DNA of 64,000 nucleotides from Hygrophila difformis. Lineage: Eukaryota > Streptophyta > Magnoliopsida > Lamiales > Acanthaceae. The stretch covers positions 12,947,982 through 13,011,981 of the forward strand of contig JAOANR010000002.1 of NCBI GenBank assembly GCA_030278955.1, given 5' to 3'. Positions 25,453-60,156 of this stretch are shown here, piece after piece. A program made the translations under genes and the position numbers. Positions within the stretch are counted from its first letter, which is position 1. Each line of letters begins with the position of its first letter. The notes beneath the pieces were generated by a model, which saw nothing but the letters and a program-made list of their open reading frames with translations, was not told the origin of the DNA and did not search any database.

Positions 25453-27250
25453 GCAGCTTGGAACTAACTTCTAAGTTCAGTCACAAAACAAATCACAAAA
25501 CAAATCATAAAATGAATCACAAGATCAATCACCAAAACGTTAGGAGGATTTGGAACTAATTTAACTAGACTAATTAGGGCACGGAAATGTTACGAGCGTT
25601 GAGCCCGAACTCGTAACAAGTTTAAGATAAAGATTTCGAACCGGAAACGACCCGAGGAGTCGAGCTAACACGTAGAGGGTAGAAAACCGATAGAGAAAAG
25701 AGGAAAAGACCCGACGAACCACGCGGACCGCCGAACCGGCCGGTCCGGCCGGCCCGCGCTCGCCGCGCGGCCGCCGCGCGGAAGGTGGAGACGCGTCTCC
25801 AGGACTGGACGCGCGTGCTCCGCGCGGGCAAAGCTATAGGTGCGCGTCACCAGCGCGCCAAAGGTGCAGAAGGTGTAAATTTTCCTTCCATGGCGATTTC
25901 TTGCCAAAATTAACATCCCCTTCGATGGTAAACGGATCCCAGCCTTAGGGAAGGCTTAAGAACGACCTAGGGGCGCCCCAAACCCTAATCTTACAGAAAA
26001 CACTTCGTATACTCCCTCAATTTCCTCTCCAAGTTCAAAACTCCTTCGACTCCACTTTCCGGCGAGTATTCCGGCGACGACGAGACAAACGGGACGAAGC
26101 CTCTACCCTTTAGAACCTTGGTAAGTAGTATTACAGTGTTTGAGTCGTCCATAAGCTTTAGCAAACTCGAAATCTAACCATCTTCCTTTGCTACGATTTC
26201 ACGTCGGGGAATGAACAAAAAGCGATCAAAGAAGTTGGCCTGTTCGTCGCGACCTTAGGACATCCGGAAACCCTTTACAGCGACCCTATTCTCTAACTAA
26301 GTAAGTTAAGACCTTACTCTCCAATTTTTGTGGTTTATTGTTGTTTAAAACTTAAGATCTAGACCCGTAACAAAAATCGGTTTTCAAAAACCCTATTTTC
26401 GACCAATTTTATAAACTCGCCTTCGGGAATTCAAACAAAAAACTTTTCAACATAGATTTTGTTCATAAGACTCTAATCTACCTTGTGTCCAAATTTCACC
26501 CATTGACATAAAGATTTACTATCCCAAATCGCGCCGTAAACTTTCTGTGATAAAATCGAACGTTCGAATTGTTGACAGATTTAATTACTCGACTTGATGC
26601 ATGTTTTTCACCCATTTTCAAAATGATTCAACTTTGCATTTCTAAACAAAGGTTGTAGATAATTTTGTCTAGATTATGCATATAAAATTTCATGAATTTT
26701 AGAGTTCATTTGTATGTCAAACGGACGATTTTCAGAACCTGTTTTAAACCATCTTTTGAGTCCGCGCGTATACAGCGTGTTGTGGTCGATTTTTGAACAT
26801 CTAAAATTCATTATTTCAAAAATCTTAAAACATTAAAGTTGTTCATTAAGGTGTTGTGTACATTATGTAAAAATTTCGGACCAATTGGCTTTGAAATGAA
26901 TTTTTAATCGGCGTTGCACGTAACTGTGTCAGAATTGGTTTTTGGGACAGAAATCATCTTTTGCAAAGAACTCGAAATTTGACTCACTTCGAAACCTTAT
27001 TTCCGAAAACTTAAAACATGAAAGTTGTTCGTATGTGTGTTTTCGAGCTACTGTGTAAATTTCAGAATTTTTGGTGTAAAGATGAATTTTTAATTAAGAA
27101 AGGCGTAAACTGCGTCGAATCGGATTTTTCGAACTTGAGAAAACTCGAACTACGAAACGCGATATCGAATATTTTGGTACAATTGAAATACGAACTTTCA
27201 AAAAATCCCATTCACTAGGCTGAGTCGATCTTCATGCTATCATTATCTTT

Positions 27251-27435
27251 GAGACTGCCTCGTTAGTGGTCTCCTTACTATCTGAGATTGCCTCGTTAGT
27301 GATCTCGCGCGTTGTGTGTTGGATCGCCTCGTTAGTGGTCCTACTATCTTTGAGACTGCCTCGTTAGTGGTTTCCCATTTATTTGGACTGCCTGGTTAGT
27401 GGTCCTACGTTTGAGATTGCCTCGTTAGTGATCTC
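27251..27435 (+). repeat. Array of six covarying hairpins in Tek-B LTR
   Basis: Six units with the loop TGCCTCGTTAGTG or a close variant are spaced 28-37 bases apart. Stems differ but stay paired: GAGAC/GTCTC, GAGAT/ATCTC, GGAT/GTCC, GAGAC/GTTTC, GGAC/GTCC and GAGAT/ATCTC. Confidence 0.85.
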
Positions 27436-28039
27436 CCGTTATGGTGTCCTCTTCTTAGTTTGCGGGATAAAATATAAAAGACTGGTGTGAGTGTTTAATT
27501 ATGCTTAAATCTTATTTACCGTGTTTTTAAATTATGCATTTAAATTACGTTCTTAAATTATGCTTTTAAATTACGCTTTTAAATTAAGTCCTCTAGTTAT
27601 GTATTCTCGCCTTGAATAAATTAATCATGTTTTTCCGCTGCGAATAAAATATGGATTTTTAAATTAATGCATGAAAAGTGTAATCTTTAGTTAAAACGCA
27701 TGTAACCCCTTAAATTGTTTAGTTAGGGATTAACTTACTCGGTATATTTTTATACTGATAAACCGTTGTCATTTTTCTTTTACAGAGTATGTCGAGTGAC
27801 GCATGCATATGCACTTGGGGGGAAACATTTATGAACACTTTTAATTACTGCATCGTACTACTGTTTTACCGGGTCTGTTAAACCCGAGGTTTGACCGTAT
27901 TGGCCGTGATTACTTTCCGCTGAATTTACTCTATTTCACGCATGATGATTTTTACTCCCGTATTTTGAATTAAGTATTATTAATTTCCGGACTCAATCGT
28001 TGGAATGTTTTTAAATCTTTTACGTACCCATAAGCCTTG

Positions 28040-36915: not shown

Positions 36916-37577
36916 CCCCGGTTTTTGGTCACCCAGGTCGGGGTGTCACCGCCACACCTCCCTAGCAAGACACGGTTTCTCCGAGCTTGCTAAAGAGATG
37001 CAAGGCTATGGTTTTTCAGAATTTAAAACATTCAAACAGCCCATTTGTATATAATTTGAAAATAATTCATCAAGTTGCAGCGGAAAATAATATTTACATA
37101 TATGTATCGCAGCGGAATTTAAATATAGGGCCAACATGGCCTAATCACGGGTTAAACAGGCCCGTTCATGCAAGATCTAGTCTAATACAAAAATTCAAAA
37201 CAATATATCATCCCAAACTTCCCGTGTATGCATATGACGATGCATAATTCTCAACTCTGAAAGAAAAGGAAATAAAAATGGTTTGGTCAGCAAAAACTTG
37301 CTGAGTAAGTTAACACAAACATGATTATGAGGTTTCAAAGCCTTTAATTAAATTTAGTAAAAACATGCTTATAGGTAATATACAATTTAGTTCATTCATC
37401 CACTGATAATTAATTGGCATGATTCTAAACACGGATTTCCACATGTGCATAATTCAAATTCCATGGTAAGATAATCGCAAGACATAATTCAAAGGCATAA
37501 TTTAAATAAGGAAGATATTCAAGTATTTCAGGATTTCACTCTTTCTCTTTTATTCGATATAATCTAGTATAATTTAT

Positions 37578-37921
37578 TCTTGGGGAATCGAACCCGCAAG
37601 AAAACAGACAATCGCCCTTGGGGAATCGAACCCGCAAGAACTCACATACATCCTAGGGAATCGAACCCATAGGAATCAACACATATTCTGGGGAATCGAA
37701 CCCGCAGAAAGACACACCCTGGGGAATCGAACCCGCAAGGTTTGACACGGACATCCTGGGGAATCGAACCCGCAGGAAAACATACAATCGCCCTTGGGGA
37801 ATCGAACCCGCAAGAACTTAAACACACCCTGGGGAATCGAACCCGCAAGGTTTGACACGGACATCCTGGGGAATCGAACCCGCAGGGACACGGACGCCCT
37901 TGGGGAATCGAACCCGCAAGG
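37578..37921 (-). repeat. Ten tandem tRNA T-arm/B-box hairpins, Tek-E 3' LTR
   Basis: On the minus strand each unit contains CGGGTTCGATTCCC: a GGG/CCC stem closing the 7-base loop TTCGATT, with GGTTCGATTCC matching the Pol III B-box consensus exactly. Outer flanks also pair and vary together: CCTTG/CAAGG, TCTTG/CAAGA, CCTA/TAGG, TTCTG/CAGAA and TCCTG/CAGGA. Spacing is about 30-40 bases. Confidence 0.9.
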
Positions 37922-39119
37922 TCAAAACAAGTTTCACAAATTTCACACGTTTCAACATATAATTTCACCAGTCGCTGTTTTGCTCCAAAAATATTTAAAA
38001 ATTCATCTTAAGTCGGATCATTCTGAAAGTTTACCGGTAACTCCGAAACACAGAGTTGAACAAGTTTCATGTTTTAAGTTTTTCAATCCGAGATACCGAA
38101 ACATGTCAAAAGCATCAATTTTCGCAGAAACACAAATCTGTCCGAAGTTTATGTGTCACAGTTTAAAGATTTCGAATTCTACCATAGCAAATCAACTCCA
38201 AATTTAATGAAATTTTACAGAGACCATCTTAAGACATTTTTCTACAACTTTGATGTTCGGCAAAAGATCTTAATCGGCCTAGAACTAATGTCAAAAACGT
38301 CGTCAAGTTCTGACCTAAGTTCCATTGAGAATTTCAAGATCCACATCCTAGCAGTTCGGTTTCGGGTGGATTTCATATATCAAATCATCACGAAAAATTC
38401 TGAAATTTTACGGAGGTGTTCTTAACGTATAGATCTACAACTCTTATGTTCAACGCCAAGCCTAGATCGGTCTAGATCTAAGGTAGAAATCACCAACAAG
38501 TTCGAACTAAAGTTCTGTCACCGTTTCAAGATCTAACCCCAATGCAGGTCTGTTCGTGGTCGTTTTTAGATAACAAAACACGATGAAAATTATGAAATTT
38601 TTACAGTAGATGGATCTATATCTTAGGAACGTTTTTCTTGTTTTAAGTTTTTCCGTTTGAAGTCGTTTTGATGTTCGGAAAAATTAGACAAAACTGTTGC
38701 GCCGTTAAAAATCACATATGGGCAGATTTACGAAAGGTTTGATTAAGTTTCTAGATTTAAATATTTTAAATACTCCCAAAACCGTGTAAGCGTTAACTTA
38801 CAGATTGTTGAGCATCCGGGATCGTCGATTCGGAGGCGTGGCTTCCAGTCCTCCGTTTATCCTCTCCGTTTGTCGGGTTCTTCGCTCTCGATCCGGATCG
38901 GGGGTTTAGAATAGAAAAAGGATGAGGTTAGGCTTTGTTTTCGAATCAAGAATGTATAGAGGAATAGATCGGATCTTACCAAGGCGATAGAAGACCCCAA
39001 ATTTGTCCAAGTCAGTCCCTTCTCTCGGTGTTGTGCCTCCGACGACTCCGGGACTAGGGTTTCGACGTATAGAGAGATTTCGTAGGGTTTCAAACGTATT
39101 CGGAGCTCTTAGGAGGTCT

Positions 39120-39127
39120 TATTTATA
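39120..39127 (-). promoter_or_regulatory. TATA box, Tek-E 3' LTR
   Basis: The minus strand reads CTATAAATAAG. A GC-rich island (39240-39320) lies upstream and AAACCCTA leader motifs lie downstream. Confidence 0.65.
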
Positions 39128-39626
39128 GATAACTAAGACCTAGGGCGTCCAAGATCTGACTCTAAGAGTCTAGAGTCGAAAGATGTTCAACCGAATGTCG
39201 AAAAATCCGGAATCGGGCGAGAGATTCACGCAACGGGCGAATCTGTCGCTTGGCGCGGGGTTGGCGCGGTTTTCTCCCAATTAGCGCGCGGCCAGCGCGC
39301 CGGACACGCCTGGACTCCGGTCCGGGCGGGTCGTGCGATCCGTCGTGCTTTTCCTCCTTTCTTTCGGACTTCTATCCCTCTACGCTTCCGAATTCCGATT
39401 TCCGGGCTATCTTCGGGCTTCGATTTCCTATCTAAATTTTTATTCGGACCTAAATTTATATTTGGACTCGAGTTATTGAGTCCATCGGTGTCGGGTCCCC
39501 GTGTACCCATTTATTCGATTAAATTGTCTTCGGCTTCCCGGGTTCTCGGAATTTTGATTCCTTTTAAATTTAAATTCCATTTCTCATCTTTTATGATTCT
39601 TTATCCATTTATCATGTTTATTATAT

Positions 39627-39657
<31 letters not shown>

Positions 39658-39700
39658 TTTTATTTATTTATTTTATGTTGCAAAATTCTCAGGTATTACA

Positions 39701-39987: not shown

Positions 39988-41052
39988 TTATTCTCTTCCT
40001 TGATCTCCTTGTTGAGGGTTTACCAATTCTATCCTCTTCTCAATCATCTCCTCACGAACATTACATTCTCTAATCATGTGGTCTTCCCCACCACATCTAT
40101 AACAAGTCCCACGCCTTGGGCACTCGCGCACCAGATGGGCTTGATGGCACTGTGGGCAACGTGGTACGACTGTACGACGTATGCCATTTCTCCCATTATA
40201 GAAATCCTTATTCTCGTTCCTATCTTGTCCATCGTTATTGCTTCGATTCTTCTTCTCAAATCCTTGCGAGTCCTTGCTCGACTCCCCATTTTCCTTACGC
40301 TTCAGTTGCTGGACTCGATCAATTGCTACAGCTCGATCATAAACCGTCTGCAGGTTCGTGAATTGTCCTACTGCAAGTATCTCCCGGATACTAAGGTTCA
40401 GACCCATCTCGAATTTCTGAGCCTTGTCAGAGTCGGTTGGTACTATCCTCGTAGCAAATCGTACTAACTCCTTAAACTGGGTGTAATACTCCTGCACCGT
40501 CCGTCCCTCTTGCTTCAGTGATAAAAACTCTTCGTACATTGCCGCCTTGGTGCTCATGGGGTAGAATCGGTCCCTTAGATCCTCCTTAAGTTTAGTCCAC
40601 GAATAAGCTTCTTCAGCTTCCTCTAAGTTCCTCTGGAGGTCTTGCCACCACTCATCGGCTTCGCCTCCTAAGTAGTAGGTTGCTACTCGTGTCTTTGCCT
40701 CATCAGGACATTTGATAGCATCCAAGAGCTTATCAAATGTACGGATCCACCCCTCTAGTTTGGCGGGATCCTCCTGCCCATCATAGCGTGGTGGTTGATA
40801 GGGATTTACCAACGCTAGATAGTTGGTTTGAGCTACGGGCGGAGGTACTGCTGCAGGTGTCCTATGCACCTCCGCATTTCCTAATGCTACTAGGATTCCC
40901 TCTATCATTTTTAAACGTGCTTCCATATTATTGGGCGCTTGAGGCACTTGCTCTCCTAGGTTCTGAGGACTTTCACTGCTGTTGGGTGTGTTGGAAAGGT
41001 TAGCGTCAGTGCCGTTTGGACTCACCTTCCTTGGTTTCCTCCTAGGCGCCAT
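39988..41052 (-). CDS. gag: Tek-E gag (intact)
   Basis: 354 residues, starting MAPRRKPRK in good context (A at -3, G at +4). Residues about 75-250 are the retrotransposon gag domain (YQPPRYDGQEDPAKLEGWIR, YLGGEADEWW, FYPMSTKAAMYEEFLSL, and YYTQFKELVRFA). Two zinc knuckles near the C-terminus, CPQCHQAHLVREC and CYRCGGEDHMIREC, should bind RNA. It is the only undamaged Tek gag in the window, and it sits in an element without any enzyme. The element would need pol in trans but could supply capsid. Confidence 0.93.
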   Translation of the reverse strand: MAPRRKPRKVSPNGTDANLSNTPNSSESPQNLGEQVPQAPNNMEARLKMIEGILVALGNAEVHRTPAAVPPPVAQTNYLALVNPYQPPRYDGQEDPAKLEGWIRTFDKLLDAIKCPDEAKTRVATYYLGGEADEWWQDLQRNLEEAEEAYSWTKLKEDLRDRFYPMSTKAAMYEEFLSLKQEGRTVQEYYTQFKELVRFATRIVPTDSDKAQKFEMGLNLSIREILAVGQFTNLQTVYDRAVAIDRVQQLKRKENGESSKDSQGFEKKNRSNNDGQDRNENKDFYNGRNGIRRTVVPRCPQCHQAHLVRECPRRGTCYRCGGEDHMIRECNVREEMIEKRIELVNPQQGDQGRE

Positions 41053-41707: not shown

Positions 41708-41724
41708 CCGGGCTCTGATACCAA
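41708..41724 (-). other. Tek-E primer binding site, initiator tRNA-Met type
   Basis: The minus strand reads TTGGTATCAGAGCCCGG, two bases after the LTR end. Confidence 0.92.
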
Positions 41725-42074
41725 TTTGTAACACCCCGATTTTTGGTCACCCAGGTCGGGGTGTCACCGCCACACCTCCCTAGCAAGACACGGTTTCTCC
41801 GAGCTTGCTAAAGAGATGCAAGGCTATGGTTTTTCAGAATTTAAAACATTCAAACAGCCCATTTGTATATAATTTGAAAATAATTCATCAAGTTGCAGCG
41901 GAAAATAATATTTACATATATGTATCGCAGCGGAATTTAAATATAGGGCCAACATGGCCTAATCACGGGTTAAACAGGCCCGTTCATGCAAGATCTAGTC
42001 TAACACAAAAATTCAAAACAATATTTCTTCCCAAACTTCCCGTGTATGCATATGACGATGCATAATTCTCAACT

Positions 42075-43620
42075 CTGAAAGAAAAGGAAATAAAAATGGT
42101 TTGGTCAGCAAAAACTTGCTGAGTAAGTTAACACAAACATGATTATGCGGTTTCAAAGCCTTTAATTAAATTTAGTAAAAACATGCTTATAGGTAATATA
42201 CAATTTAGTTCATTCATCCACTGATAATTAATTGGCATGATTCTAAACACAGATTTCCACATGAGCATAATTCAAATTCCATGGTAAGATAATCGCAAGA
42301 CATAATTCAAAGGCATAATTTAAATAAGGAAGATAATCAAGTATTTCAGGATTTCACTCTTCCTCTTTTATTCGATATAATCTAGTATAATTTATTCTTG
42401 TGGAATCGAACCCGCAAGAAAACAGACAATCGCCCTTGGGGAATCGAACCCACAAGAACTCACATACATCCTAGGGAATCGAACCCATAGGAATCAACAC
42501 ATATTCTGGGGAATCGAACCCGCAGAAAGACACACCCTGGGGAATCGAACCCGCAAGGTTTGACACGGACATCCTGGGGAATCGAACCCCGCAGGAAAAC
42601 ATACAATCGCCCTTGGGGAATCGAACCCGCAAGAACTCAAACACACCCTGGGGAATCGAACCCGCAAGGTTTGACACGGACATCCTGGGGAATCGAACCC
42701 GCAGGGACACGGACACCCTTGGGGAATCGAACCCGCAAGGTCAAAACAAGTTTCACAAATTTCACACGTTTCAACATATAATTTCACCAGTCGCTGTTTT
42801 GCTCCAAAAATATTTAAAAATTCATCATAAGTCGGATCATTCTGAAAACTTGCCGGTAACTCCGAAACACAGAGTTGAACAAGTTTCATGTTTTAAGTTT
42901 TTCAATCCGAGATACCGAAACATGTCAAAAGCATCAATTTTCGCAGAAACACAAATCTGTCCGAAGTTTATGTGTCACAGTTTAAAGATTTCGAATTCTA
43001 CTATAGCAAATCAACTCCAAATTTAATGAAATTTTACAGAGACCATCTTAAGACATTTATCTATAACTTTGATGTTCGGCAAAAGATCTAAATCGGCCTA
43101 GAACTAATGTCAAAAACATCGTCAAGTTCTGACCTAAGTTCCATCGAGAATTTCAAGATCCACATCCTAGCAGTTCGGTTTCGGGTGGATTTCATATATC
43201 TAATCATCACGAAAAATTCTGAAATTTTACGGAGGTGTTCATAACGTATAGATCTACAACTCTTATGTTCAACGCCAAGCCTTGATCGGTCTAGATCTAA
43301 GGTAGAAATCACCAACAAGTTCGAACTAAAGTTCTGTCACCGTTTCAAGATCTAACCCCAATGCAGGTCTGTTCGTGGTCGTTTTTAGATAACAAAACAT
43401 GATGAAAATTATGAAATTTTTACAGTAGATGGATCTATATCTTAGGAACGTTTTTCGTGTTTTAAGTTTTTCCGTTTGAAGTCGTTTTGATGTTCGGAAA
43501 AATTAGACAAAACTGTTGCGCAGTTAAAAATCACATATGGGCAGATTTACGAAAGGTTTGATTAAGTTTCAAGATTTAAATATTTTAAATACTCCCAAAA
43601 CCATGTAAGCGTTAACTTAC
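42075..43620 (-). other. Putative leader intron in Tek-E 5' LTR
   Basis: Donor CTGTAAGTTAACG at 43620 and acceptor CCTTTTCTTTCAG ending 42075, 1546 bases apart. It would remove the 185-bp units and the T-arm array from the mature RNA. Inference from motifs conserved across Tek LTRs. Confidence 0.45.
42398..42740 (-). repeat. Ten tandem tRNA T-arm/B-box hairpins, Tek-E 5' LTR
   Basis: Same ten units as in the other LTR with only a few changes (first unit TGGAATCG, one extra C in unit six). Confidence 0.9.
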
Positions 43621-43927
43621 AGATTGTTGAGCGTCCGGGATCGTCGATTCGGAGGCGTGGCTTCCAGTCCTCCGTTTATCCTCCCCGTTTGTCGGGTTCT
43701 TCGCTCTCGATCCGGATCGGGGGTTTAGAATAGAAAAAGATGAGGTTAGGCTTCGTTTTCGAATCAAGAATGTATAGAGGAATAGATCGGATCTTACCAA
43801 GGCGATAGAAGACCCCAAATTCGTCCAAGTCAGTCCCTTCTCTCGGTGTTGTGCCTCCGACGACTCCGGGACTAGGGTTTCGACGTACAGAGAGATTTCG
43901 TAGGGTTTCAAACGTATTCGGAGGTCT

Positions 43928-43935
43928 TATTTATA
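43928..43935 (-). promoter_or_regulatory. TATA box, Tek-E 5' LTR
   Basis: CTATAAATAAG on the minus strand, as in the 3' LTR. Confidence 0.65.
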
Positions 43936-44393
43936 GATAACTAAGACCTAGGGCGTCCAAGATCTGACTCTAAGAGTCTAGAGTCGAAAGATGTTCAACC
44001 GAATGTCGAAAAATCCGGAATCGGGCGAGAGATTCACGCAACGGGCGAATCTGTCGCTTGGCGCGGGGTTGGCGCGGTTTTCTCCCAATTAGCGCGCCGG
44101 ACACGCCTGGACTCCTGTCCGGGCGGGTCGTGCGATCCGTCGTGCTTTTCCTCCTTTCTTTCGGACTTCTATCCCTCTACGCTTCCGAATTCCGATTTCC
44201 AGGCTATCTTCGGGCTTCGATTTCCTATCTAAATTTTTATTCGGACCTAAATTTATATTTGGACTCGAGTTATTGAGTCCATCGGTGTCGGGTCCCCGTG
44301 TACCCATTTATTCGATTAAATCGTCTTCGGCTTTCCGGGTTCTCGGAATTTTGATTCCTTTTAAATTTAAATTCCATTTCTCATCTTTTATGA

Positions 44394-46107: not shown

Positions 46108-48708
46108 TGTATTATTCCATAATTAATTTCGAGTGATCAAATTATTAATATCCCATAATTAATTTATCTTTAATAAATTATTAATTGAAAATAATTATGG
46201 TTGAATCCTTGATACTCAACAACTGAGCAAATAAATTCAACTAGTTGCTTGACTTGTGGTTAACTTGAGGCCCTACCAAGTTGGAGTCTTCCATTACCTT
46301 TGTTAACTAATTTGTGCTTCTCATGGGTGTAACTTGGATGCATTGACGTGGGAAAAGGGCTGGTAATGCAAGGAATGAGGCTAAGAGATATTATTGTAGT
46401 AATAGGAGCAAATCTATGGGAATCAAGATCATGTATCAAATAGGAAATAAAATCACCTAATTCCAATGAGCATAGTGGCGGATCCATAGTTTTTTTTTTT
46501 TTTTTTATATATCTTACCTCATCATCCATCCCAAGGCAATTAGACTAATTGAGTAAGTATAAAATATTGAGGATCCAAGTCATTCACATTAGCAAGGAAG
46601 CTTAATCAAATATTATCACCAAAATCCTTGTAGTTGGCAAGAGAGGGGCGGCAATGGAGACTAAAGATATTGGGAATCCACCATACCATCCATATTGATT
46701 CATTCCTCAATAGACATCACCTACACCACCTATAGGGTCGAAACCCTAGCTCCCAAAACTCAATAAAACCAGCCCCCAACAGCCCTATTTCAGCCTTTGA
46801 AATTTTCGACACATAGGAGAGTTCTTGGTGAGTGAGTGTTCTTCGTGGGGAGGCGATTGCGGATTAAATTTTATTTGTTTCTACTCAAGCTTAGAAGGTA
46901 TACTTCATCCTTACACTTTCCCCCTACCTCTGGTCGAATTTAGAATCCTAACTTTTAGTTTTTCGCTCTTGTACTTACAAATCGGAACCGAAGAGAAAGA
47001 GACGAGTAGATTGGACGTGTTCGCGGACTCCGGAGGCCATCCCGATGAAATCTAAGACTTTAGATCTTAGCTACTGTAAGTTGATTCTTCTCATAACCGT
47101 TTTGGTGCCCTAAAATAGAATGGAATGCAAGTTTTAGTCAACGTACGAAAATCTGTCCCAAAAACTCTCCCTACGCGCGTTTTCTGAAGTCCAACTTTTA
47201 AGCCCTTTTCGAGCTTTCAAACGGATAAACCTAAAACTACAAAATTGTTCCTAATGAGTTAAAGTTTATCGTGTTAAAAGTTTAGAATTTTTCATCGACG
47301 TTTGTTCTGTCAAATCCGATCTGGTATTTTCTGAGTTATTCTTCAAACCCGTAAAAGCTGACAGAATTTCATGTCCGACTTCTTTAACGTTTTTTGAATG
47401 GATCCCTTAAAAACTAATATTTGATGTAAACGTGAAAGTTGTAGCTAGCCGTCTGAAGAATGTGTCTTTAAAATTTCATAAATTTTCGTGAAGGTTTGGA
47501 CCTCCGAACGCGATCTGGTTGCTCCGTGTTTTTAAAAGAAGTAAGAACAGTTTTTCTAACTTAACCTGAGGTGCGAATCTGATTTGATCTGGGACGTTTT
47601 CGGATAAAATGCCTCTAACAAAACTTGTTCATTTTTGTGTCGTGTACATGCCTGTAAAATTTCATAATTTTCGGAGTTCGTTTACTAGGTCGAAAACGTG
47701 TTTTAAAAACAGTGCGTTGTTACCGGAAAGTTGGCAGATTATACTTTTTAAGAAGATCGTAAAATTTGACTTGTTTCCTTACCTTATTTCGAGAAACCTA
47801 AAACATGAAAGTTGTTCGTTAGGGTGTCGTTGGTACACTCAGTAAATTTCATAGTGATCGTCTTAAGAATGCATTTTTGAAACCAAAAGGCGTAATTTGC
47901 GACGTGTGTGCTTATTAAACCTTGAGATTTATGGAAAACTTTCCTTGCGACACTTTCAATGATTTTGAAAACTTTGTGATTTATGATCGAGTTGGATACT
48001 ATGAAATATTGATTATGTGGCTTGTGGACATAAAAGCCCAAGCGTATGGCTAGCGGACATAAGAGCCCTAGTGAAATATTGATTATGAGGCTTGTGGACA
48101 TAAGAGCCCAAGCGTATGGCTACCGGACATAAGAGCCCTAGTGAAATATTGATTATGAGGCTTGTGGACATAAGAGCCCAAGCGTATGGCTAGCGGACAT
48201 AAGAGCCCTAGTGAAATATTGATTATGAGGCTTGTGGACATAAGAGCCAAAGCATATGGCTAGCGGACATAAGAGCCCTAGTGAAATATTGATTATGAGG
48301 CTTGTGGATATAAGAGCCCAAGCGTAAGATTAGTGGAAATAAGAGCCCTAGCGAATGGTGATTTGTAAGCCTAGTGGACATAAGGGCCCTAGCGAATTGT
48401 GATTTGTGAGGCTTGTGGACATAAGTGCCCAAGTGGAATACGGCGACTTCGATCATATTGAACAACAGTAGAAGAATGAAATATTAGTTATGCAAGAACA
48501 TATATCATATCCCATGATTTTTAAACCCTTCGTACTTAATAAATCCTTTGTTAAATTTTTGAAATTTATATACTTAATATTCATGTACGTCTCTTTACAT
48601 TTAGAATCATGCCTTTAAATCCTTATTATCAATGTTGTCAAAATACGTTTTCATATTATAAAACGTGCATGATTAAAAAAATAAACTTTTATTAAATATA
48701 TTTTATCC
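46108..48708 (+). repeat. Tek-F LTR (LTR family 3), 3' truncated
   Basis: Starts TGTATTATTCC at 46108 after a polypurine tract. Has an AAACCCTAG leader motif (46741), a donor CTGTAAGTTG (47079), four degenerate units of about 185-190 bp (anchors about 47234, 47428, 47617 and 47800) and a twelve-hairpin array. It lacks the acceptor region and LTR end, and joins another 3' UTR at about 48709. No gene. Confidence 0.7.
48014..48436 (+). repeat. Twelve alternating hairpins in Tek-F LTR
   Basis: Units share GGACATAAGAGCC and alternate between stem CTTG/CAAG and stem CTAG/CTAG, with a two-hairpin period near 70 bases. GGCT/AGCC can pair inside. Confidence 0.85.
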
Positions 48709-49040: not shown

Positions 49041-49589
49041 TGTAATACCCGTGAATTTTCCATCATAAAATAAAACAATAATTAAATAAATAAATAATAA
49101 ATAAAATAAATACTATAAATAAATAAATAAAGATAAGGAAATGAGAAATGGGATCTTAACTCAAAAAGGAATTTAATTAGATAAGAAGAATTATTAAAGG
49201 TAAATAAATTGTACACCAAAACCCGACACTAATGAACTCGAGTATTCGAGTCTAAAACATCTAATTAGACCCGAGTGAAAATTTAGAAAGGAAGTAGAGA
49301 CCCGAAGATACCCCAGAAATCGGAATTCGGGAGCATAGAGGGATAGAAACCCGAAAGAGAGGCGGAAAAGCACGACGGATCGCACGACCCGCCCGGACCG
49401 AAGTCCAGGCGAGAGTCGCGCGGTGGCCGCGCGGTGAAGGGGGATTAGCGCGCCACGACCGCGCCACTTGACAGATTCGCCCGTTGCGTGAATCTCTCGC
49501 TCGAACGCGGATTTTTCAACTTTCGGTTGAACATCTCTCGACCCAAGACCTTTAGGTCAGATGTTGGACGCCCTAGGGATTGAGAAATC

Positions 49590-49597
49590 TATAAATA
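49590..49597 (+). promoter_or_regulatory. TATA box, Tek-A 5' LTR
   Basis: TATAAATA, preceded by the GC-rich island and followed within about 30-70 bases by two AAACCCTA motifs, typical of plant 5' leaders. Confidence 0.7.
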
Positions 49598-49915
49598 AGC
49601 CCCTTGGGAGCCCCAAACAAGTTTACAAAACCCTACAACCTTCTATACGTTCGAAACCCTAAATTCGGAGTCAACGGAAAGCACCAAACGGAGGCAGCAG
49701 CTTTGGACGAAAATCCAAGGATCTCCAAACGTTGTGGTAAGCTCTGGTTCGATAAATCTCTTCACGTTTCAATCCGAAAATGGATTCTAACTTCGGTTCT
49801 TTTCTTTCTACACCCCGTATTGGATCTAGATCGTAGAACCCGACGAACGGAGAGGAGAAACGGTGATCTGGAAGCCACGCCTTCGAATTAGACATCCCCG
49901 ACGTTCATAAACTCG

Positions 49916-51257
49916 GTAAGTTAACTCTTACATGGTTTTGGGATGAATTAAAACATTCAAACTAAAAGATTAACAAGAAACCGAAAATCTGTCAACTATT
50001 ACTTTCTACCGACGCAACATATTTGATGAATTTTTCCGAACCTTAAAACGAACTCAAACGGAAAAACTTAAAACACAAAAAACGTTCCTAAGACTTAGAT
50101 CTAGCTACTGTAAATTTTTGAGAATTTTTGGAGTTGATTTGATATGTGAAAATCCACCGAAACCGAACTGTTTGAATCTAGATCTTGAAATCTTGGACAG
50201 AACTTAGGAATGATCTTGATCACGTTTTTGACATAGGATCTAAGCTGTTTTAAATCTTTGGCCGAACATGAAAGTTATAGATAAGTGTCTTAAGATGATC
50301 TCTGTCAAATTTCATTAAATTTGGAGTTGAATTGCTATGGTAGAATTTGAAATCTTTAAACTGTGATACAATAAACTCGGAGAGATTTGTTCTTATGCGA
50401 AAATTGGTAATTTTGACCTACTTAGGTATCTCGGATCGAAAAAGCTTAAAACACGAAAGTTGTAGATCTTGATGTTTCCGAGTCAGATATGAAAGTTTGG
50501 AATTTTTGGAATTAAATCTAATTTTAGACGAATTTTAGAGTAAACTGTGGTTTACCGGAAACAAAATCTTGAAATCTTGTTGAAACATGGAATTAACCTT
50601 TAGGGTTGAAACGAGTTGAGATATTATTTCTAAATAAATACAATCGAAGTCAGATTTTTAAAATTAAATCCCCTTACAAACTTGATAAATTAAAATTAGG
50701 GGTGAGTGCTCTGCAGGGTGCCCCTAACGATTCACTTCGTGCCGTAATGGACGATGGTGACCCCGCGCGCTAAACTTGAGATATGGATTGCCTAAACGGC
50801 GAAATATAGAGCCTACACTCTCGTGAATATCCGTATGGGTTTCCCGAGGCTCCGGAGTGGTACTGGGTATGGCTGATACGGTTGCGGCCGCCGGGCTACC
50901 GGCTAAACTTGTTGACATCGCGATTTTATCGTGAAACTTTGAAATACCAAATCGGGAATGTAATGGGGATTCTAAACTAAATTAAATTAGATTAAATTAT
51001 GTTGTTGTCCAATTAAATTATTTAAACGCTTTATTTAAAGTATGGCTTTTATGATTAAACCATGTGATATGTGTCATTAAATAGAGCCCTGAGGTAAATT
51101 ATGCTATTGGATATGGATTGGATGAAATTAAATATTATGTTATTATCATGCTTTGTTAAATTATTTAATTTATGGCTTTAAAACCCTACGATCATGCATG
51201 TGTTAGCTTACTCAGCAATTTTGCTGACCAAAACCATTTTTATTCCTTTCCTTACAG
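49916..51257 (+). other. Putative leader intron in Tek-A 5' LTR
   Basis: Donor GTAAGTTAAC (49916) and acceptor TTCCTTTCCTTACAG (ending 51257), 1342 bases apart. An earlier donor GTAAGC lies at 49737. Equivalent sites occur in the other Tek LTRs. Confidence 0.45.
50700..50903 (+). repeat. GC-rich hairpin region, Tek-A 5' LTR
   Basis: Ends in GCCGG-GCTA-CCGGC (50890-50903). Related to the Tek-D hairpins but with one copy and a different loop. Confidence 0.65.
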
Positions 51258-51529
51258 ATTATGTGGAATGAGTATGTGTGAGCACGGTTCATGCATGGGA
51301 TTTTGGGAACACTTATTTTGCTTTTAAATTTCGTACTTAGACTATATTATGAACGGGCCTGTTTAACCCGTGTTTTGGCCATGTCGGCCCTTTTTTTTAT
51401 ATTTTCCGCTGCGATACTGTATTAAACCAAATATTTCCGCTGCGCTATGCTATTATTATTTTCGAATTATATTGTATGGGCTATTTTGAATGATTTAAAT
51501 GTTTTTAAATACTGCAATACCTAGCCTTG

Positions 51530-51575
51530 CATCTCTTTAGTAAGCTCGGAGAAACCGTGTCTTACTAGGGAGATG
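51530..51575 (+). other. Conserved terminal stem-loop, Tek-A 5' LTR
   Basis: CATCTC/GAGATG, AGTAAG/CTTACT and CGG/CCG stack into one long stem about 50 bases before the primer site. Other copies change both sides of pairs. Confidence 0.75.
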
Positions 51576-51623
51576 TGGCGGTGACATCCCGACCTGGGTG
51601 ACCAAAAACCGGGGTGTTACAAG

Positions 51624-51640
51624 TTGGTATCAGAGCCCGG
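51624..51640 (+). other. Tek-A primer binding site, initiator tRNA-Met type
   Basis: TTGGTATCAGAGCCCGG starts two bases after the LTR. Confidence 0.93.
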
Positions 51641-51854
51641 CTATTTTTAAACTACTATTTTTAAACCCTTACTATTTTTAAACTACTGATAGTATTTTGA
51701 CTATCATTCTAAATTTTAAAGTATTATTTCCATGGAAAACTTTTTATTTTAAACCCCATGGAAAAAAAATATATATATATATATATATAGGGTGCATTAA
51801 ATTATTATTGGGGGGAAATATCAATTGCATTTGCATGTTGCATCTCTGCTATGA

Positions 51855-51963
51855 ACTTAGAATCTTGGCGAATCGAACTTAGAATCTTGGCGAATTGAAC
51901 CTAGAATCTTGGCGAATTGAACTTAGAATCTTGGCGAATTGAACCTAGAATCTTGGCGAATAT
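51855..51963 (+). repeat. Five 22-bp leader repeats
   Basis: Five direct copies of a unit containing TTAGAATCTTGGCGAAT end just before the coiled-coil ORF. Tek-E has three copies, Tek-C two, Tek-D none. Confidence 0.85.
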
Positions 51964-51989
51964 TAATTTAGATCTCTTGCTTGCGCTAG

Positions 51990-52589
51990 ATGGCTAGTCA
52001 AGACATGATGCAGTGGATGATCAAGATGATGAACGCCCACCTTGACACCCAACAAACCATACAACAAATGAAAAATCGTATAGCTCACTTGGAGGCAAAT
52101 CTGCACCAAATGGGAGATTTAAGGGAAGCTGACCTCCAGCACTTCCTGAACTTGAGAGCCGCTGATCAAGATCGCATAAAAGACTTAGAAACTCAAGTGC
52201 AAAAACTCACCGAACGAAGCGATGCTGTGATAGATAGAGTCGAGGATCTAGGGACGGACCTGCTTGACCTCACTGATATAGTAGTACCATATAGCCCTGT
52301 GGAAGACCACTTGATGGGACCACGAAGCCCAACACCCCCAGTGGAGAGCCCGTCCGGCCTTATCCATGGACGCTACGGAACCCTTGGGCTCTGGCCCCAC
52401 ATGGTCCGCCCATCGCCAAACCCGAGCCCCGTGGAGAACCATCTAGAGGAGACACCGGACCCAGTTCCGGAAGCCGTCGATCCACCATCCCCAGTGTTTC
52501 ATGGACCTTTGGGCACCGGCCAGGTCTCTGATGAGGACGATCCTATGGAAGACCCCGCTACTCTGCCAGGGGACGCGGAGATCTTTTAG
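51990..52589 (+). CDS. Tek upstream coiled-coil ORF, Tek-A copy (intact)
   Basis: 199 residues. MASQDMMQWMIKMMNAHLD starts the frame right after the leader repeats. Heptad-like residues run to about 85 (LEANLHQMG, LREADLQ, IKDLETQVQKL), predicting a coiled coil. A Pro/Ser-rich linker follows, and the tail has SDEDDPMEDPAT. It lies between primer site and where gag would be. I know no named family. It survives in elements that have lost gag, which suggests either a function useful in cis or simple recency. It could bind Gag or the antisense product through coiled coils, but that is speculation. Confidence 0.8.
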   Translation: MASQDMMQWMIKMMNAHLDTQQTIQQMKNRIAHLEANLHQMGDLREADLQHFLNLRAADQDRIKDLETQVQKLTERSDAVIDRVEDLGTDLLDLTDIVVPYSPVEDHLMGPRSPTPPVESPSGLIHGRYGTLGLWPHMVRPSPNPSPVENHLEETPDPVPEAVDPPSPVFHGPLGTGQVSDEDDPMEDPATLPGDAEIF

Positions 52590-52631
52590 ATACTTTATCT
52601 TAGATAGTATATTTATTTTGCACATCCTATT

Positions 52632-52670
52632 ACTTGTATTAAATTTCTTTTGAGGGAATGAAATGCAAGT
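52632..52670 (+). terminator. Poly(A)-type hairpin after coiled-coil ORF, Tek-A
   Basis: ACTTGTA pairs with TGCAAGT. The first pair is A-T here and G-C in Tek-B and Tek-D. The loop has AATGAAA rather than AATAAA. Confidence 0.45.
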
Positions 52671-52900
52671 TGATTTTTCTTTGGAATTCTTCAGCCAAAA
52701 ATTATTATTTAAAAAAAAAAAAACCGGAACAGTTCCATCGCATTTTCTCTAAATGATAACAGTCAAATCAGTCAACAAGGATACAACGGGAACATAAACT
52801 GCGAAACATAATCAGCAAGGTCATCCTTGTATAGTCCATAAGAAACGACTAAATAAAACACTACTACAGCAAGCCTAGATGGAAACGCAGAAACAAAGGA

Positions 52901-54232
52901 TCACTGGTCGGGAGGCGGGAACTGACGACGCATATACTCATCCATCTGGCGCATGTAGGCGTACATGTCGGTCATGGAGGCCTGCTGCTCCAGCTGTCTC
53001 GTAGTGATCGTATCCATGCGAGCCTGGTATAGATCCATCCTGGCATCCAGAGCGTCGTAGCGAGCCTGCCCGGCTGCAAACCCAGCGTCCATACGAGCAA
53101 ACCCCGCATCCATACTAAGCTGCATACCCTGTAGCATCTGAACTAACTGCGGCATCTCCGCACCCTGCTGGGGAGCCACGGGAGGCGGGGGTGGCTGCTC
53201 AGGAGGAACAACTAGAATCAAACCATCACCATTGGGCTCCGGGCGAAGGACAGCCGGAGGAGCCCCACGTCGAAGAGCACTGCGTCGAGGGGCGTAGGAA
53301 GGGATACGGTAGTAGCCGCCAGCAGATAGCTCGTAAGGATCCGTCTCTGGGGACGTACGGATCCCCTGAGCCGCACACATGCCGCAAATAAGATGAACAT
53401 GGGTAATCACCCTGCTCCCTCGCCCTCGGCGCATACCCCTCAGGTTGTCCGCGATACAAGCACCAACATTCACCCTACCACCTCGGGCGAGAAAGCAGAT
53501 GGTCTCATAGACGTGGTCTATAACAATATGGCTCCGGGTGATCGGCCGGACACGGCCTAACCATATCTGAGCTAGCTCGCGCCACGGAGAGTCCATCGTC
53601 GTCAACCTCAGCTCGTGATCGTGCTCGAGTAGGGGAGCCGTCAAGGTGCATAAAACGCCCCACGCAGGCGGGGGTATACGACCCTCGGGCTGTGGTCGGA
53701 ATACGCCGTCGTCAGGAAGGCCAAAGTATACGTTGATCGCCCGAGCACTGAAATCTAGATGGCGACCCCGAACCCAGACTTGAGACAAGTCACTGTTCTC
53801 CCCGAGACCGCCAATGTTGGCGATGACCTCCATAGCTAAGTATCCAGAAGCGATGCCCTCGGGATGGCGCGCAAGTCCAGTCCACTGAAGAAGACCCAAA
53901 ACTGGACTAACTCTGTCGTCGTCCATATGGCGAGGATACATGCCTCTCTCCGGGACATAAGACCTGTTACGACGAAGGTCGTCGAAGTAGAACTCCTGAG
54001 AGGCCATAGTAGCAAACCGATACCTGTCGTGTCGACGGGGACGCACCTCGTCGGGGAGACCCTTGAGCTTAGGGCCCCGCTGCTCCTCGTCCTCCTCGGA
54101 CTCGCTCTCATCAAAATCAGACATCGCCGGAGCGGCAGTGCTAGGACCAGCCTCATCGCGCTGAGCAACTCGTCTCCTGGTCCTCGGGGGACACATGAGT
54201 GATGCCAAACCAACCCACAGAAAAAGCAGCAT
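52901..54232 (-). CDS. Tek-A antisense gene: plant transposon protein-like, intact
   Basis: 443 residues from the ATG at 54232, one base after a splice acceptor. The N-terminus is hydrophobic (MLLFLWVGLASLM), then MCPPRTRRRV, then an acidic patch DESESEEDEEQ. The core at about 100-330 (GLARHPEG, GGLGENSDLSQVWVRG, PWRELAQIWLGRVRPITRSH, and CFLARGGRVNVGACIADNL) resembles the putative plant transposon protein domain also seen in Ath1 ORF D. A poly-Pro linker and a C-terminal coiled coil with repeats like FAAGQARYDALDARMDLYQ follow. The gene is antisense to the element, convergent with the coiled-coil ORF, and replaces gag to RT. Function unknown; the family is common in plant transposons. Confidence 0.85.
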   Translation of the reverse strand: MLLFLWVGLASLMCPPRTRRRVAQRDEAGPSTAAPAMSDFDESESEEDEEQRGPKLKGLPDEVRPRRHDRYRFATMASQEFYFDDLRRNRSYVPERGMYPRHMDDDRVSPVLGLLQWTGLARHPEGIASGYLAMEVIANIGGLGENSDLSQVWVRGRHLDFSARAINVYFGLPDDGVFRPQPEGRIPPPAWGVLCTLTAPLLEHDHELRLTTMDSPWRELAQIWLGRVRPITRSHIVIDHVYETICFLARGGRVNVGACIADNLRGMRRGRGSRVITHVHLICGMCAAQGIRTSPETDPYELSAGGYYRIPSYAPRRSALRRGAPPAVLRPEPNGDGLILVVPPEQPPPPPVAPQQGAEMPQLVQMLQGMQLSMDAGFARMDAGFAAGQARYDALDARMDLYQARMDTITTRQLEQQASMTDMYAYMRQMDEYMRRQFPPPDQ

Positions 54233-54233
54233 C

Positions 54234-54827
54234 CTGCAAATGTCCAACCAATACCAAATGTAAAGATAAATCCTGCATAGTGATTACAATAAGCATAATC
54301 TAGAAACCACAAGAACATGAGGTGTGAGCCCTAACACGGGTAGTCAAGAAGATAACCAAACCAATACTATGTCTAGAGAAGTCCCAAACCTCTTTGGGAC
54401 ATTTCGTCAAACACGTGGAGTGCGCAATAAATCAAGACCAAAGTTTACTTGCAAACACATGGGGAACGCCCCAAACCAAAACAATTGCTCAGGCAATAGC
54501 TCATCATCATAACAGGGCATAAAACAACGACAACAAACTCATCCGCATGCCCACAATACCAATACAATCGGGAAATTAATGATTTCTTTAGAATATGAAA
54601 TCTAGTAAAAACTTTCTCGAACTAGGCATACATTGTTGCACAAATACTTCCGAATCAACAAAAATGACAAGAAGTATCGTCCAAACCCGCTAATTGCACA
54701 AATTAGGTCTAAAAACGACAAACCCCCAATTCTTGTCCCTAAGCCCTAATTTTTAAATTCACCCAAAGATTAAGGCTAAACAAGACATAAAATCTGAAAT
54801 TGACAAGTAGAAGTAGTAGACGCATAC
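54234..54827 (-). other. 5' leader intron of Tek-A antisense gene
   Basis: Minus-strand donor GCAAG/GTATGCG at 54827 and acceptor ACATTTGCAG ending 54234. No ORF. Positions and contexts match those of Tek-B (622 bases there). Confidence 0.6.
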
Positions 54828-55067
54828 CTTGCAAAGGAAAATCGGAGCCGGGAATGAGAGAATCGGGGGATGGGAGAACGAATTTGAGAGAAAACTAGAA
54901 GAAGCCTCGGAAGTGAAAATGGGGCGGAATGGCTCGCGCTCCGCGCGAGCCCTTTTACTCGAACTGCCATGGCCGCGCGGTCGCCGCGCGCCACCGCGCG
55001 GGCACCGCGCGAGCCTCAAAATTTGTTTTTTATTTATTTATTTATTTTGCCTTCTACTGTTTACTCG
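54828..55067 (-). promoter_or_regulatory. Promoter and first exon region of Tek-A antisense gene
   Basis: A pyrimidine-rich exon-like stretch (54830-54925) lies downstream of a CGCG-rich island (54929-55020) similar in composition to the LTR islands at 49415-49470. No clear TATA. Confidence 0.45.
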
Positions 55068-57347: not shown

Positions 57348-57570
57348 CTGCAATCTTAAGGGGGAGAGGATGTGATACTACCTATTTTTCGTACACTGTT
57401 GTAAATGTTGAACTACGTTATGGCTTGATCCCTTTACCGGGTACGTAGGCAGCTTAGAAGTTTTAATTCTAAGTTCAGTCACAACATAATAAAACAAACA
57501 CAAGACCTTTAGCACGAGAAAAGCCGAAACACAACTTCGAGGACGAAGTTGATTCTTAAGGAGGGTAGAC
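57348..57570 (+). other. Tek-A 3' UTR with two polypurine motifs and two hairpins
   Basis: AAGGGGGAGAGGATG plus TGTGATAC at 57358-57378, stem-loop 57413-57448, hairpin AACTTCG/CGAAGTT at 57533-57550, then AAGGAGGGTAGAC touching the LTR. Confidence 0.8.
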
Positions 57571-60156
57571 TGTAATACCCGTGAATTTTCCATCATAAAA
57601 TAAAACAATAATTAAATAAATAAATAATAAATAAAATAAATACTATAAATAAATAAATAAATAAAGATAAGGAAATGAGAAATGAGATCTTAACTCAAAA
57701 AGGAATTTAATTAGATAAGAAGAATTATTAAAGGTAAATAAATTGTACACCAGAACCCGACACTAATGAACTCGAGTATTCGAGTCCAAAACATCTAATT
57801 AGACCCGAGTGAAAATTTAGAAAGGAAGTAGAGACCCGAAGATACCCCGGAAATCGGAATTCGGGAGCATAGAGGGATAGAAACCCGAAAGAGAGGCGGA
57901 AAAGCACGACGGATCGCACGACCCGCCCGGACCGAAGTCCAGGCGAGAGTCGCGCGGTGGCCGCGCGGTGAAGGGGGATTAGCGCGCCACGACCGCGCCA
58001 CTTGACAGATTCGCCCGTTGCGTGAATCTCTCGCCCGAACGCGGATTTTTCGACTTTCGGTTGAACATCTCTCGACCCAAGACCTTTAGGTCAGATGTTG
58101 GACGCCCTAGGGATTGAGAAATCTATAAATAAGCCCCTTGGGAGCCCCAAACAAGTTTACAAAACCCTACAACCTTCTATACGTTCGAAACCCTAAATTC
58201 GGAGTCAACGGAAAGCACCAAACGGAGGCAGCAGCTTTGGACGAAAATCCAAGGATCTCCAAACGTTGTGGTAAGCTCTGGTTCGATAAATCTCTTCACG
58301 TTTCAATCCGAAAACGGATTCTAACTTCGGTTCTTTTCTTTCTACACCCCGTATTGGATCTAGATCGTAGAACCCGACGAACGGAGAGGAGAAACGGTGA
58401 TCTGGAAGCCACGCCTCCGAATTAGACATCCCCGACGTTCATAAAATCGGTAAGTTAACTCTTACATGGTTTTGGGATGAATTAAAACATTCAAACTAAA
58501 AGATTAACAAGAAACCGAAAATCTGTCAACTATTACTTTCTACCGACGCAACAGATTTGATGAATTTTTCCGAACCTTAAAACGAACTCAAACGGAAAAA
58601 CTTAAAACACGAAAAACGTTCCTAAGACTTAGATCTAGCTACTGTAAATTGTTGAGAATTTTTAGAGTTGATTTGATATGTGAAAATCCATCGAAACCGA
58701 ACTGTTTGAATCTAGATCTTGAAATCTTGGACAGAACTTAGGAATGATCTTGATCACGTTTTTGACATAGGATCTAAGCTGTTTTAGATCTTTGGCCGAA
58801 CATGAAAGTTGTAGATAATTGTCTTAAGATGATCTCTGTCAAATTTCATTAAATTTGGAGTTGAATTGCTATGGTAGAATTTGAAATCTTTAAACTGTGA
58901 TACAATAAACTCGGACAGATTTGTTCTTATGCGAAAATTGGTGATTTTGACCTACTTAGGTATCTCGGATCGAAAAAGTTAAAACACGAAAGTTGTAGAT
59001 CTTGATGTTTCCGAGTCAGATATGAAATATTGGAATTTTTGGAATTAAATCTGATTTTAGACGAATTTTAGAGTAAACTGTGGTTTACCGGAAACAAAAT
59101 CTTGAAATCTTGTTGAAACATGGAATTAACCTTTAGGGTTGAAACGAGTTGAGATATTATTTCTAAATAAATACAATCGAAGTCAGATTTTTAAAATTAA
59201 ATCCCCTTACAAACTTGATAAATTAAAATTAGGGGTGAGTGCTCTGCAGGGTGCCCCCTAACGATTCACTTCGTGCCGTAATGGACGATGGTGACCCCGC
59301 GCGCTAAACTTGAGATATGGATTGCCTAAACGGCAAAATATAGAGCCTACACTCTCGTGAATATCCGTATGGGTTTCCCGAGGCTCCGGAGTGGTACTGG
59401 GTATGGCTGATACGGTTGCGGCCGCCGGGCTACCGGCTAAACTTGTTGACATCGCGATTTTATCGTGAAACTTTGAAATACCAAATCGGGAATGTAATGG
59501 GGATTCTAAACTAAATTAAATTAGATTAAATTATGTTGTTGTCCAATTAAATTATTTAAACGCTTTATTTAAAGTATGGCTTTTATGATTAAACCATGTG
59601 ATATGTGTCATTAAATAGAGCCCTGAGGTAAATTATGCTATTGGATATGGATTGGATGAAATTAAATATTATGTTATTATCATGCTTTGTTAAATTATTT
59701 AATTTATGGCTTTAAAACCCTACGATCATGCATGTGTTAGCTTACTCAGCAATTTTGCTGACCAAAACCATTTTTATTCCTTTCCTTACAGATTATGTGG
59801 AATGAGTATGTGTGAGCACGGTTCATGCATGGGATTTTGGGGAACACTTATTTTGCTTTTAAATTTCGTACTTAGACTATATTATGAACGGGCCTGTTTA
59901 ACCCGTGTTTTGGCCATGTCGGCCCTTTTTTTTATATTTTCTGCTGCGATACTGTATTAAACCAAATATTTCCGCTGCGCTATGCTATTATTATTTTCGA
60001 ATTATATTGCATGGGCTATTTTGAATGATTTAAATGTTTTTAAATACTGCAATACCTAGCCTTGCATCTCTTTAGTAAGCTCGGAGAAACCGTGTCTTAC
60101 TAGGGAGATGTGGCGGTGACATCCCGACCTGGGTGACCAAAAACCGGGGTGTTACA
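57571..60156 (+). repeat. Tek-A 3' LTR
   Basis: Same features as the 5' LTR: TATA 58124-58131, donor 58450, hairpin 59424-59437, acceptor ending 59791, terminal stem-loop 60065-60110. Has one extra AAAT unit and a few point changes. Confidence 0.93.

Follow-up and report, generated by a model that had tools for sequence, protein, structure and literature searches.

In a 64,000-nt stretch of the Hygrophila difformis genome (GCA_030278955.1, JAOANR010000002.1:12,947,982-13,011,981, forward strand; hereafter the window), each of the two long terminal repeats (LTRs) of a Ty3-type retrotransposon carries ten tandem hairpin units, and comparison of such units among related LTRs indicates that their stems are conserved as RNA structure. 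With a probability of about one-half, we read the array as an RNA-level cis element, an exchangeable hairpin domain of the unspliced leader RNA that would likely act as a protein-binding platform. A preliminary description of this DNA had presented the units as perfect tRNA T-arm hairpins containing the B box of RNA polymerase III (Pol III) promoters; the results below suggest that the likeness to tRNA probably arose late and by accident, on a structural feature that is older.

Ten hairpin units in each LTR of a Gag-only element

The arrays and the parts of the element that carries them are the following.

37578..37921, minus strand: ten-unit hairpin array of the 3' LTR, identified by motif count and unit profile
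42397..42741, minus strand: ten-unit hairpin array of the 5' LTR, with an inner mismatch (CCA) in one unit and an inserted base in another
36916..39700, minus strand: 3' LTR, which begins TGTAATACC at 39700 and is truncated at its 3' end near 36916
41727..44393, minus strand: 5' LTR, which terminates GGGGTGTTACA at 41727 and is truncated at its 5' end near 44393
41712..41723, minus strand: primer binding site TGGTATCAGAGC, adjoining the end of the 5' LTR
39988..41052, minus strand: Gag open reading frame (ORF), 354 aa, with the domains Retrotrans_gag, Ty3_capsid, and CCHC zinc knuckle

When GGTTCGATTCC was sought in the window with up to one mismatch, 20 matches were obtained, all of them exact, all on the minus strand, and ten in each array, compared with 1.19 on average and at most 4 in the shuffled window. 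The preliminary description was therefore right that there are ten tandem units per LTR and that both LTRs contain the array. Each unit is 24 bases long, and the spacing of 31-39 nt leaves no gap wide enough for a missed unit; the same spacing check found no missed units within any of the T arrays (those built of T units, with the loop TTCGATT).

In the predicted fold of a unit, an outer stem of 4-5 bp and an inner stem of 3 bp are separated by one bulged pyrimidine on the 5' side, and the inner stem is closed by the 7-nt loop TTCGATT. A pyrimidine occupies the bulge in 135 of 136 T-type units and in 27 of 29 units of another kind (CATAAGAG). A tRNA T-arm has five uninterrupted pairs, so the match is limited to the inner three pairs and the loop of the unit, and the "exact T-arm layout" first described was not found. 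The hairpins are perfect as regards the inner stem and loop in all ten units at 37578-37921, but among the outer stems of that array there are G.U pairs (CCTTG/CAGGG) and, at an outermost position, a single C.A (CCCTG/CAGGA), and two units of the other array are defective, as listed above. Folding unit by unit likewise returned a hairpin with a 7-nt loop, but with the stem interrupted by the bulge and, for TTCTG/CAGAA, with four bases paired and the outermost pair open. The four outer flank combinations reported earlier (CCTTG/CAAGG, CCTA/TAGG, TTCTG/CAGAA, and TCCTG/CAGGA) were all confirmed. Across 12 T arrays with 116 units, identity within an array was 41-47% for the spacers, 70% for the outer stems, 97% for the inner stem, and 94% for the loop.

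The host was assigned to the Ty3 type on the minus strand by its paired LTRs, primer binding site (presumably that of initiator tRNA-Met), and Gag. Its two LTRs are 97.65% identical over the 2.68 kb that could be aligned, each being cut off at one end. The span between them is ∼2.0 kb, in which the ORFs of at least 100 aa are Gag and one antisense to Gag; no pol ORF of that size was found between the LTRs. Because of this short span without a pol ORF, the element is Gag-only and non-autonomous. Non-autonomous retrotransposons with Gag as the sole coding part between the LTRs are known as TR-GAG elements, and the window element, in which Gag is the only coding part found between the two LTRs, fits that definition; no hairpin array is known to us in this group, for which no search was made.

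Three further elements with T arrays (L009, L010, and L011) have ∼2.1-2.3 kb between their LTRs and contain Gag ORFs, so that Gag domains were found in four of the six T-array loci (the ORFs of L012 lay outside the search). Three protein relatives of Gag were found. At L013 (G000:C1:15040000-15049900), which has no ORF of at least 140 aa, three T arrays at a spacing of ∼3.3-3.4 kb and two primer sites indicate a tandem arrangement of LTRs and a short internal part.

Covariation of the stems and arrays in related LTRs

Distinct units of three array kinds (T, CATAAGAG, and CCTCGTTAG) were compared with 500 shuffles, which leave kinship among the units in, and with versions in which the assumed pairing was slid; from the T set of 46 distinct units, two were excluded for their indels, which left 44. 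Paired cells made up 94.0% of the T set (88.8 ± 0.7 when shuffled, reached by 0 of 500), 92.0% of the CATAAGAG set (85.7 ± 2.1, reached by 1 of 500), and 90.9% of the CCTCGTTAG set (86.0 ± 1.3, reached by 0 of 500), and the slid versions gave at most 71.3, 68.8, and 53.4%, respectively. In the T units, 33 cells were changed on both sides versus 8.9 after shuffling, a value that none of the 500 shuffles reached. The covariation score lay above 500, 499, and 498 of the 500 shuffles for T, CATAAGAG, and CCTCGTTAG. Based on these paired cells and covariation scores, which exceed the shuffled and slid controls in all three array kinds, we conclude from sequence comparison that the stems are conserved as RNA structure. 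The earlier observation that the outer flanks vary yet stay complementary was thereby extended to three array kinds, and drift without compensation did not occur.

The genome (915 Mb, 246 contigs) was searched for the unit together with its LTR stem flanks. The pattern TTGYGGGTTCGATTCCCCA had 9,312 matches (control, 0), and among those listed on contig 1, clusters often recurred ∼5 kb apart, as expected of LTR pairs. The array is therefore common to many insertions, and the possibility that it is present in this one only did not materialize.

The junction between LTR and primer site (GTGTTACA-N0-6-TGGTATCAGAGC) had 12,466 matches in the genome (control, 0). From roughly a hundred such junctions listed on contig 1, the 3 kb upstream were taken for 60, hand-chosen mainly in list order and omitting places already sampled and some others, and 650-base slices were taken for 20 more. 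The LTR motif at the end of the window element terminates 37 of the 60 sampled LTRs, which with L044, added by hand, gives 38 family LTRs. Three or more copies of a known hairpin unit, located 0.5-1.9 kb before the LTR end, occur in 23 of the 38; as the unit list was derived from the same LTRs, this share is descriptive. Six of the 20 slices, for which family membership was not checked, also have at least three known units.

The unit kinds in this zone are T or TTAGATT, CATAAGAG, CCTCGTTAG, TTGCCGAAAGGCAA (with a GAAA loop), GCCGGATCACCGGC (up to three mismatches), and longer units of 73 and 89 bp. Arrays number 8-13 units in Gag-only elements such as the one in the window. Two more arrays, with covarying stems and other loops, lie in the window itself.

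48002..48430, plus strand: array of the unit GCTTG t GGACATAAGAGCC CAAGC, in another LTR-like repeat of the window
27244..27440, plus strand: array of the unit GAGAC TGCCTCGTTAGTG GTCTC, in a further LTR, distinct from the other two

In a tree built from the terminal 450 bp of 45 LTRs, the array kinds are patchy, with the GAAA kind at three positions and the CATAAGAG kind at two or more, and kinds differ between close LTR relatives. Because of this patchiness, the arrays are considered to have been exchanged or re-amplified among LTRs. Higher-order periods of 108-111 bp within arrays indicate recent amplification. Within arrays, loops are 91-99% identical and spacers 38-66% in four of five profiled kinds, the exception being the GAAA kind (spacers, 83-90%). 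Spacings above 50 nt are absent from the T, TTAGATT, and CCTCGTTAG arrays and account for 3 of 29 in the CATAAGAG arrays.

The tRNA-like loop and the B box

Five LTRs (L036, L047, L052, L081, and L084) branch apart from the rest in the tree, which was rooted at the midpoint only. Each of these basal LTRs has a single hairpin that shares the stem and bulge of the units, CTTGtGGG..CCC(A)AAGG, and their loops (TGTAAAT, TGTATAT, TGTAAGTT, TTTTAGT, and TGTTAGT) are not tRNA-like. In four of the five, the hairpin flanks agree with those of TTAGATT-type units at 16 of 26 bases, whereas none of 2,000 random places exceeded 15; in L052 the agreement is 12 of 26, which 8.7% of random places reach. A genome search for the stem CTTGYGGG..CCCAAGG, a pattern that fixes the stem and is informative on loops only, gave 195 matches (control, 0). 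Among the listed matches with CTTGTGGG there are 14 different loops, none of them TTCGATT, and eleven pairs ∼8-10 kb apart. The sister type of the T unit has the loop TTAGATT, and its pattern GGGTTAGATTCCC has 2,372 exact matches in the genome (control, 6). Because the basal clade has the same stem with other loops, the TTCGATT loop is best seen, as far as these sequences tell, as derived, having arisen on an older stem; the direction of the change would follow from the position of that clade.

These results bear on the proposal that the array works as DNA, its B boxes recruiting TFIIIC to form a boundary or an extra-TFIIIC locus or to lend Pol III help to the LTR. The T units do conform to the B box GGTTCRANNCC, with GGTTCGATTCC in 20 of 20 window units, and C56 is kept in 108 of 116 T units from six loci. 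However, C56 is absent from all 20 units of five TTAGATT-type loci (TTAGATT in 14, TTTGATT in 5, and TTAAATT in 1), the 2,372 exact matches to GGGTTAGATTCCC belong to this same type, and no B box was found in the array kinds other than T from the same LTR zone. TFIIIC requires the box and not covarying outer stems, yet the outer stems covary. An A box was not detected beyond chance, with 4 matches at two mismatches per 900-base stretch (two stretches; 4.6-4.8 expected from shuffles) and none with fewer mismatches. In yeast, a C56G change lowers TFIIIC binding 370-fold, according to a passage that gives no value for C56A or C56T (PMC11811891). ARAGORN returned no tRNA in the window, and Rfam gave nothing above its cut-off, the only hits being two 13-nt tmRNA fragments at 10.9 bits versus a cut-off of 47. 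These scans also speak against a Pol III promoter or tRNA relic.

The TFIIIC, tRNA mimicry, and Pol III roles suggested at the outset thus found no support, the B-box loop being one of many on this stem. We consider a DNA-level B-box array quite improbable and TFIIIC binding unlikely as a general function, judging by these sequences; the TTCGATT lineage may have gained it secondarily. The case illustrates how a convincing likeness to tRNA and the B box can arise as a loop variant of another stem.

A second proposal is that the unit is a T-arm piece of a tRNA or of a tRNA-derived short interspersed nuclear element (SINE) that was inserted and then amplified. The 13-mer GGGTTCGATTCCC has 21,236 matches in the genome (reversed control, 11), and many of those listed are dispersed single copies. 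Fifteen sampled array-free loci (L014-L028) carry one to three copies each, most of them flanked, by eye, by GGTTGG..CACCCGGCCCC-like sequence, which we take to mark a tRNA-derived SINE; ARAGORN found no tRNA genes at these loci. However, the flanks of the SINE-like copies are unlike those of the LTR units, and the units under study form arrays in LTRs, not the single dispersed unit with a tRNA-like head expected of such a SINE. The basal hairpins, with their flank matches beyond random places in four of five LTRs and with loops that are not tRNA-like, and the negative ARAGORN scan of the window also disfavor this origin, which we regard as the least probable of those considered.

A predicted leader intron and a proposed role of the array

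The 5' LTR contains motifs of a promoter and of an intron that would include the array.

43928..43935, minus strand: TATA box TATAAATA, predicted promoter of the 5' LTR, identified by motif
42075..43797, minus strand: predicted leader intron of the 5' LTR, containing the array, with donor CCTTG|GTAAGATC and polypyrimidine acceptor TTTCAG|AG, identified by conserved motifs

Among the 45 LTRs compared, the TATA motif CTATAAAT is at the expected place in 15, and GGTAAG lies 138-152 nt downstream of it in 14 of these 15, versus 2.5% of random windows. A polypyrimidine-YAG|AR acceptor-like motif is present in 37 LTRs, 36 of which have it between -310 and -358, and CTTACTC lies upstream of it in 36 of the 45. 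In the window element this part is 42075-42140 (minus strand), and in most related LTRs it lies at about -400 to -340 relative to the LTR end; there a conserved CTTACTC, a hairpin, a polypyrimidine tract, and YAG resemble a branch point and acceptor. The arms of this small hairpin between CTTACTC and the acceptor change together by eye (CAGCAA..TTGCTG and CAGTAT..ATACTG).

Such a location makes it very unlikely that the units are double-stranded sites for a Pol II activator, like the tandem repeats of other LTR promoters. Tnt1 and retroviral U3 regions also have tandem repeats within the LTR, but those lie upstream of the promoter (PMC3601003), whereas the array described here follows the predicted TATA box at a distance of ∼1.2-1.5 kb, outside U3 and within a predicted intron. 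It also has covarying stems, and a DNA-binding site needs no covarying arms whose letters vary.

If the LTR is transcribed and spliced as predicted, the intron would extend from ∼100 nt after the transcription start to ∼340 nt before the LTR end, and the array would be found only in unspliced RNA, the form needed for copying into new DNA. As a leader intron within an LTR must remain in the RNA that is copied to DNA, hairpins in that intron would naturally mark the unspliced RNA. Folded in cells, the tandem hairpins would most likely offer a multi-copy binding platform to the Gag nucleocapsid or to a host RNA-binding protein. This platform might mark the unspliced RNA for packaging or might withhold it from splicing and translation. 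The different arrays in different LTR subfamilies would then represent an exchangeable hairpin domain.

Several observations weigh against an RNA-level element in a leader intron. At least three known units are lacking in 15 of the 38 family LTRs. The TATA pattern is missing from 30 of the 45 LTRs, which are hence uninformative on the donor. Among the basal five, the pair of TATA motif and donor was found only in L081 and an acceptor near -340 in none with the patterns used, so that either the intron is not old or the patterns were too narrow. The minimum-energy fold of the whole array retains 4 of 10 units as separate hairpins and the centroid 1, the others pairing across units, and the whole-array z is similar on the array strand (-3.70) and the opposite strand (-3.49). 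The 100-nt windows from -1000 to -600 have mean z ranging only from -0.1 to -0.7 on the sense strand and from -0.2 to -0.8 on the antisense strand. Double-changed pairs amount to 4 of 8, 3 of 7, and 2 of 8 in T, CATAAGAG, and CCTCGTTAG; of the 500 shuffles, 36, 65, and 349 did as well on this measure, and 22, 80, and 500 did as well on further pair types. The CCTCGTTAG set slid by +1 still scores 0.273 for covariation versus 0.336. The double changes occupy nine pair positions in total and therefore represent few independent events. A strand test of G.T versus A.C gave 42 to 16 (p = 0.0009) before composition was controlled, but the excess is mostly composition (GU share of 0.71, 0.75, and 1.00 observed versus 0.62, 0.68, and 0.77 shuffled), and for T flank combinations present in at least two loci the counts are 2 to 3, in the opposite direction. 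Because the composition control took away most of the asymmetry, the strand test is weak, and the reading does not depend on it.

The main rival, and a serious one even if we hold it to be somewhat unlikely, is that the array is a by-product without function, a minisatellite in which hairpin-induced template switching by reverse transcriptase or at a replication fork duplicates the unit and quasi-palindrome correction keeps its arms complementary. The patchy distribution of array kinds, their dissimilarity between close relatives, the 108-111 bp periods left by recent amplification, the weak strand asymmetry once composition is controlled, and the covariation measures within the shuffle range are all consistent with such a process. 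On the other hand, the arrays share one LTR zone, and their loops are far more alike than their spacers in all profiled kinds except the GAAA kind. In addition, the basal clade carries the stem only once per LTR, with changing loops and without any amplification operating there, and wobble pairs are retained.

A more specific form of the RNA-level reading is a swappable packaging code, in which a subfamily-specific hairpin, repeated many times in the leader intron and hence displayed on unspliced RNA alone, would have its loop read by the matching Gag; we put this forward tentatively and consider it rather unlikely. If it were true, Gag-only elements with 8-13 units would compete for particles by displaying more sites. 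As to how plant Ty3-type elements select RNAs for packaging, a hairpin array in the leader intron would be a concrete, testable candidate signal in an abundant group (12,466 junctions; 37 of 60 sampled with the window-type end). The operator hairpin that the coat protein of phages MS2 and PP7 binds combines a short stem, a bulged base on the 5' side, and a fixed loop. The array units are analogous in all three respects, no homology being claimed; they differ in that their bulge is a pyrimidine, and capsid binding by them is putative.

Among the matches listed in the open-licence literature (titles and abstract starts), no paper on tandem hairpin arrays in LTRs was found. Tat/Ogre elements of plants have hypervariable tandem repeats in their 3' untranslated regions (PMC7004042, citing Macas et al. 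2009), which are likewise fast-changing repeats at a fixed site of an LTR element; they differ in lying in the 3' untranslated region and not in the LTR, and "hairpin" occurs 0 times in the main text of that paper. Cassandra also has an LTR with a Pol III promoter-like sequence, but it is a highly conserved 5S-related sequence with an internal promoter (PMC10853983), whereas here the B box results from variation in the loop, has been lost in the sister type, and is not accompanied by an A box. BARE, like the mechanism proposed here, separates translated from packaged RNA, partly via splicing (PMC3735527); there splicing gives a Gag-only RNA, and the abstract contains no LTR leader intron that carries an array.

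The strongest structure in sliding-window folding is not the array but the LTR end.

41727..41831, minus strand: last 105 nt of the LTR, with a pair of long RNA hairpins on the sense strand next to the primer site, supported by folding and covariation

The last 100 nt of 37 LTRs have a mean z of -5.7 sense versus -2.2 antisense. Paired cells of these hairpins exceed 500 of 500 shuffles, with 8 of 36 pairs changed on both sides among 34 distinct LTR ends.

An array-free relative in the window (LTRs at 49041-51626 and 57571-60161) has single copies of several hairpins of the arrays in the corresponding zone.

50697..50905, plus strand: single-copy hairpin domain by predicted pairing (GGGGTGAGTGCTC..., TTGCC..GGC, CTCG..CGAG, and GCCGG..CCGGC), in the zone of the array-free related LTR that corresponds to the array
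59230..59439, plus strand: the same domain in the second array-free LTR

In eight rows of this domain, which are too alike, 0 of 60 pairs are changed on both sides. In L099, L102, and L104, a small duplicated hairpin (TTGAGATTGCTTTGCAATCGTGAAAATC) lies near the domain, and its start resembles the CCTCGTTAG unit. The interior of the array-free relative (51626-57571, plus strand) has RNase H and integrase ORFs, with Integrase_H2C2 and SH3_Tf2-1 above the cut-off and rve just below it, and a Transposase_32-like ORF, below the cut-off, lies at 52904-54283 on the strand opposite to that element.
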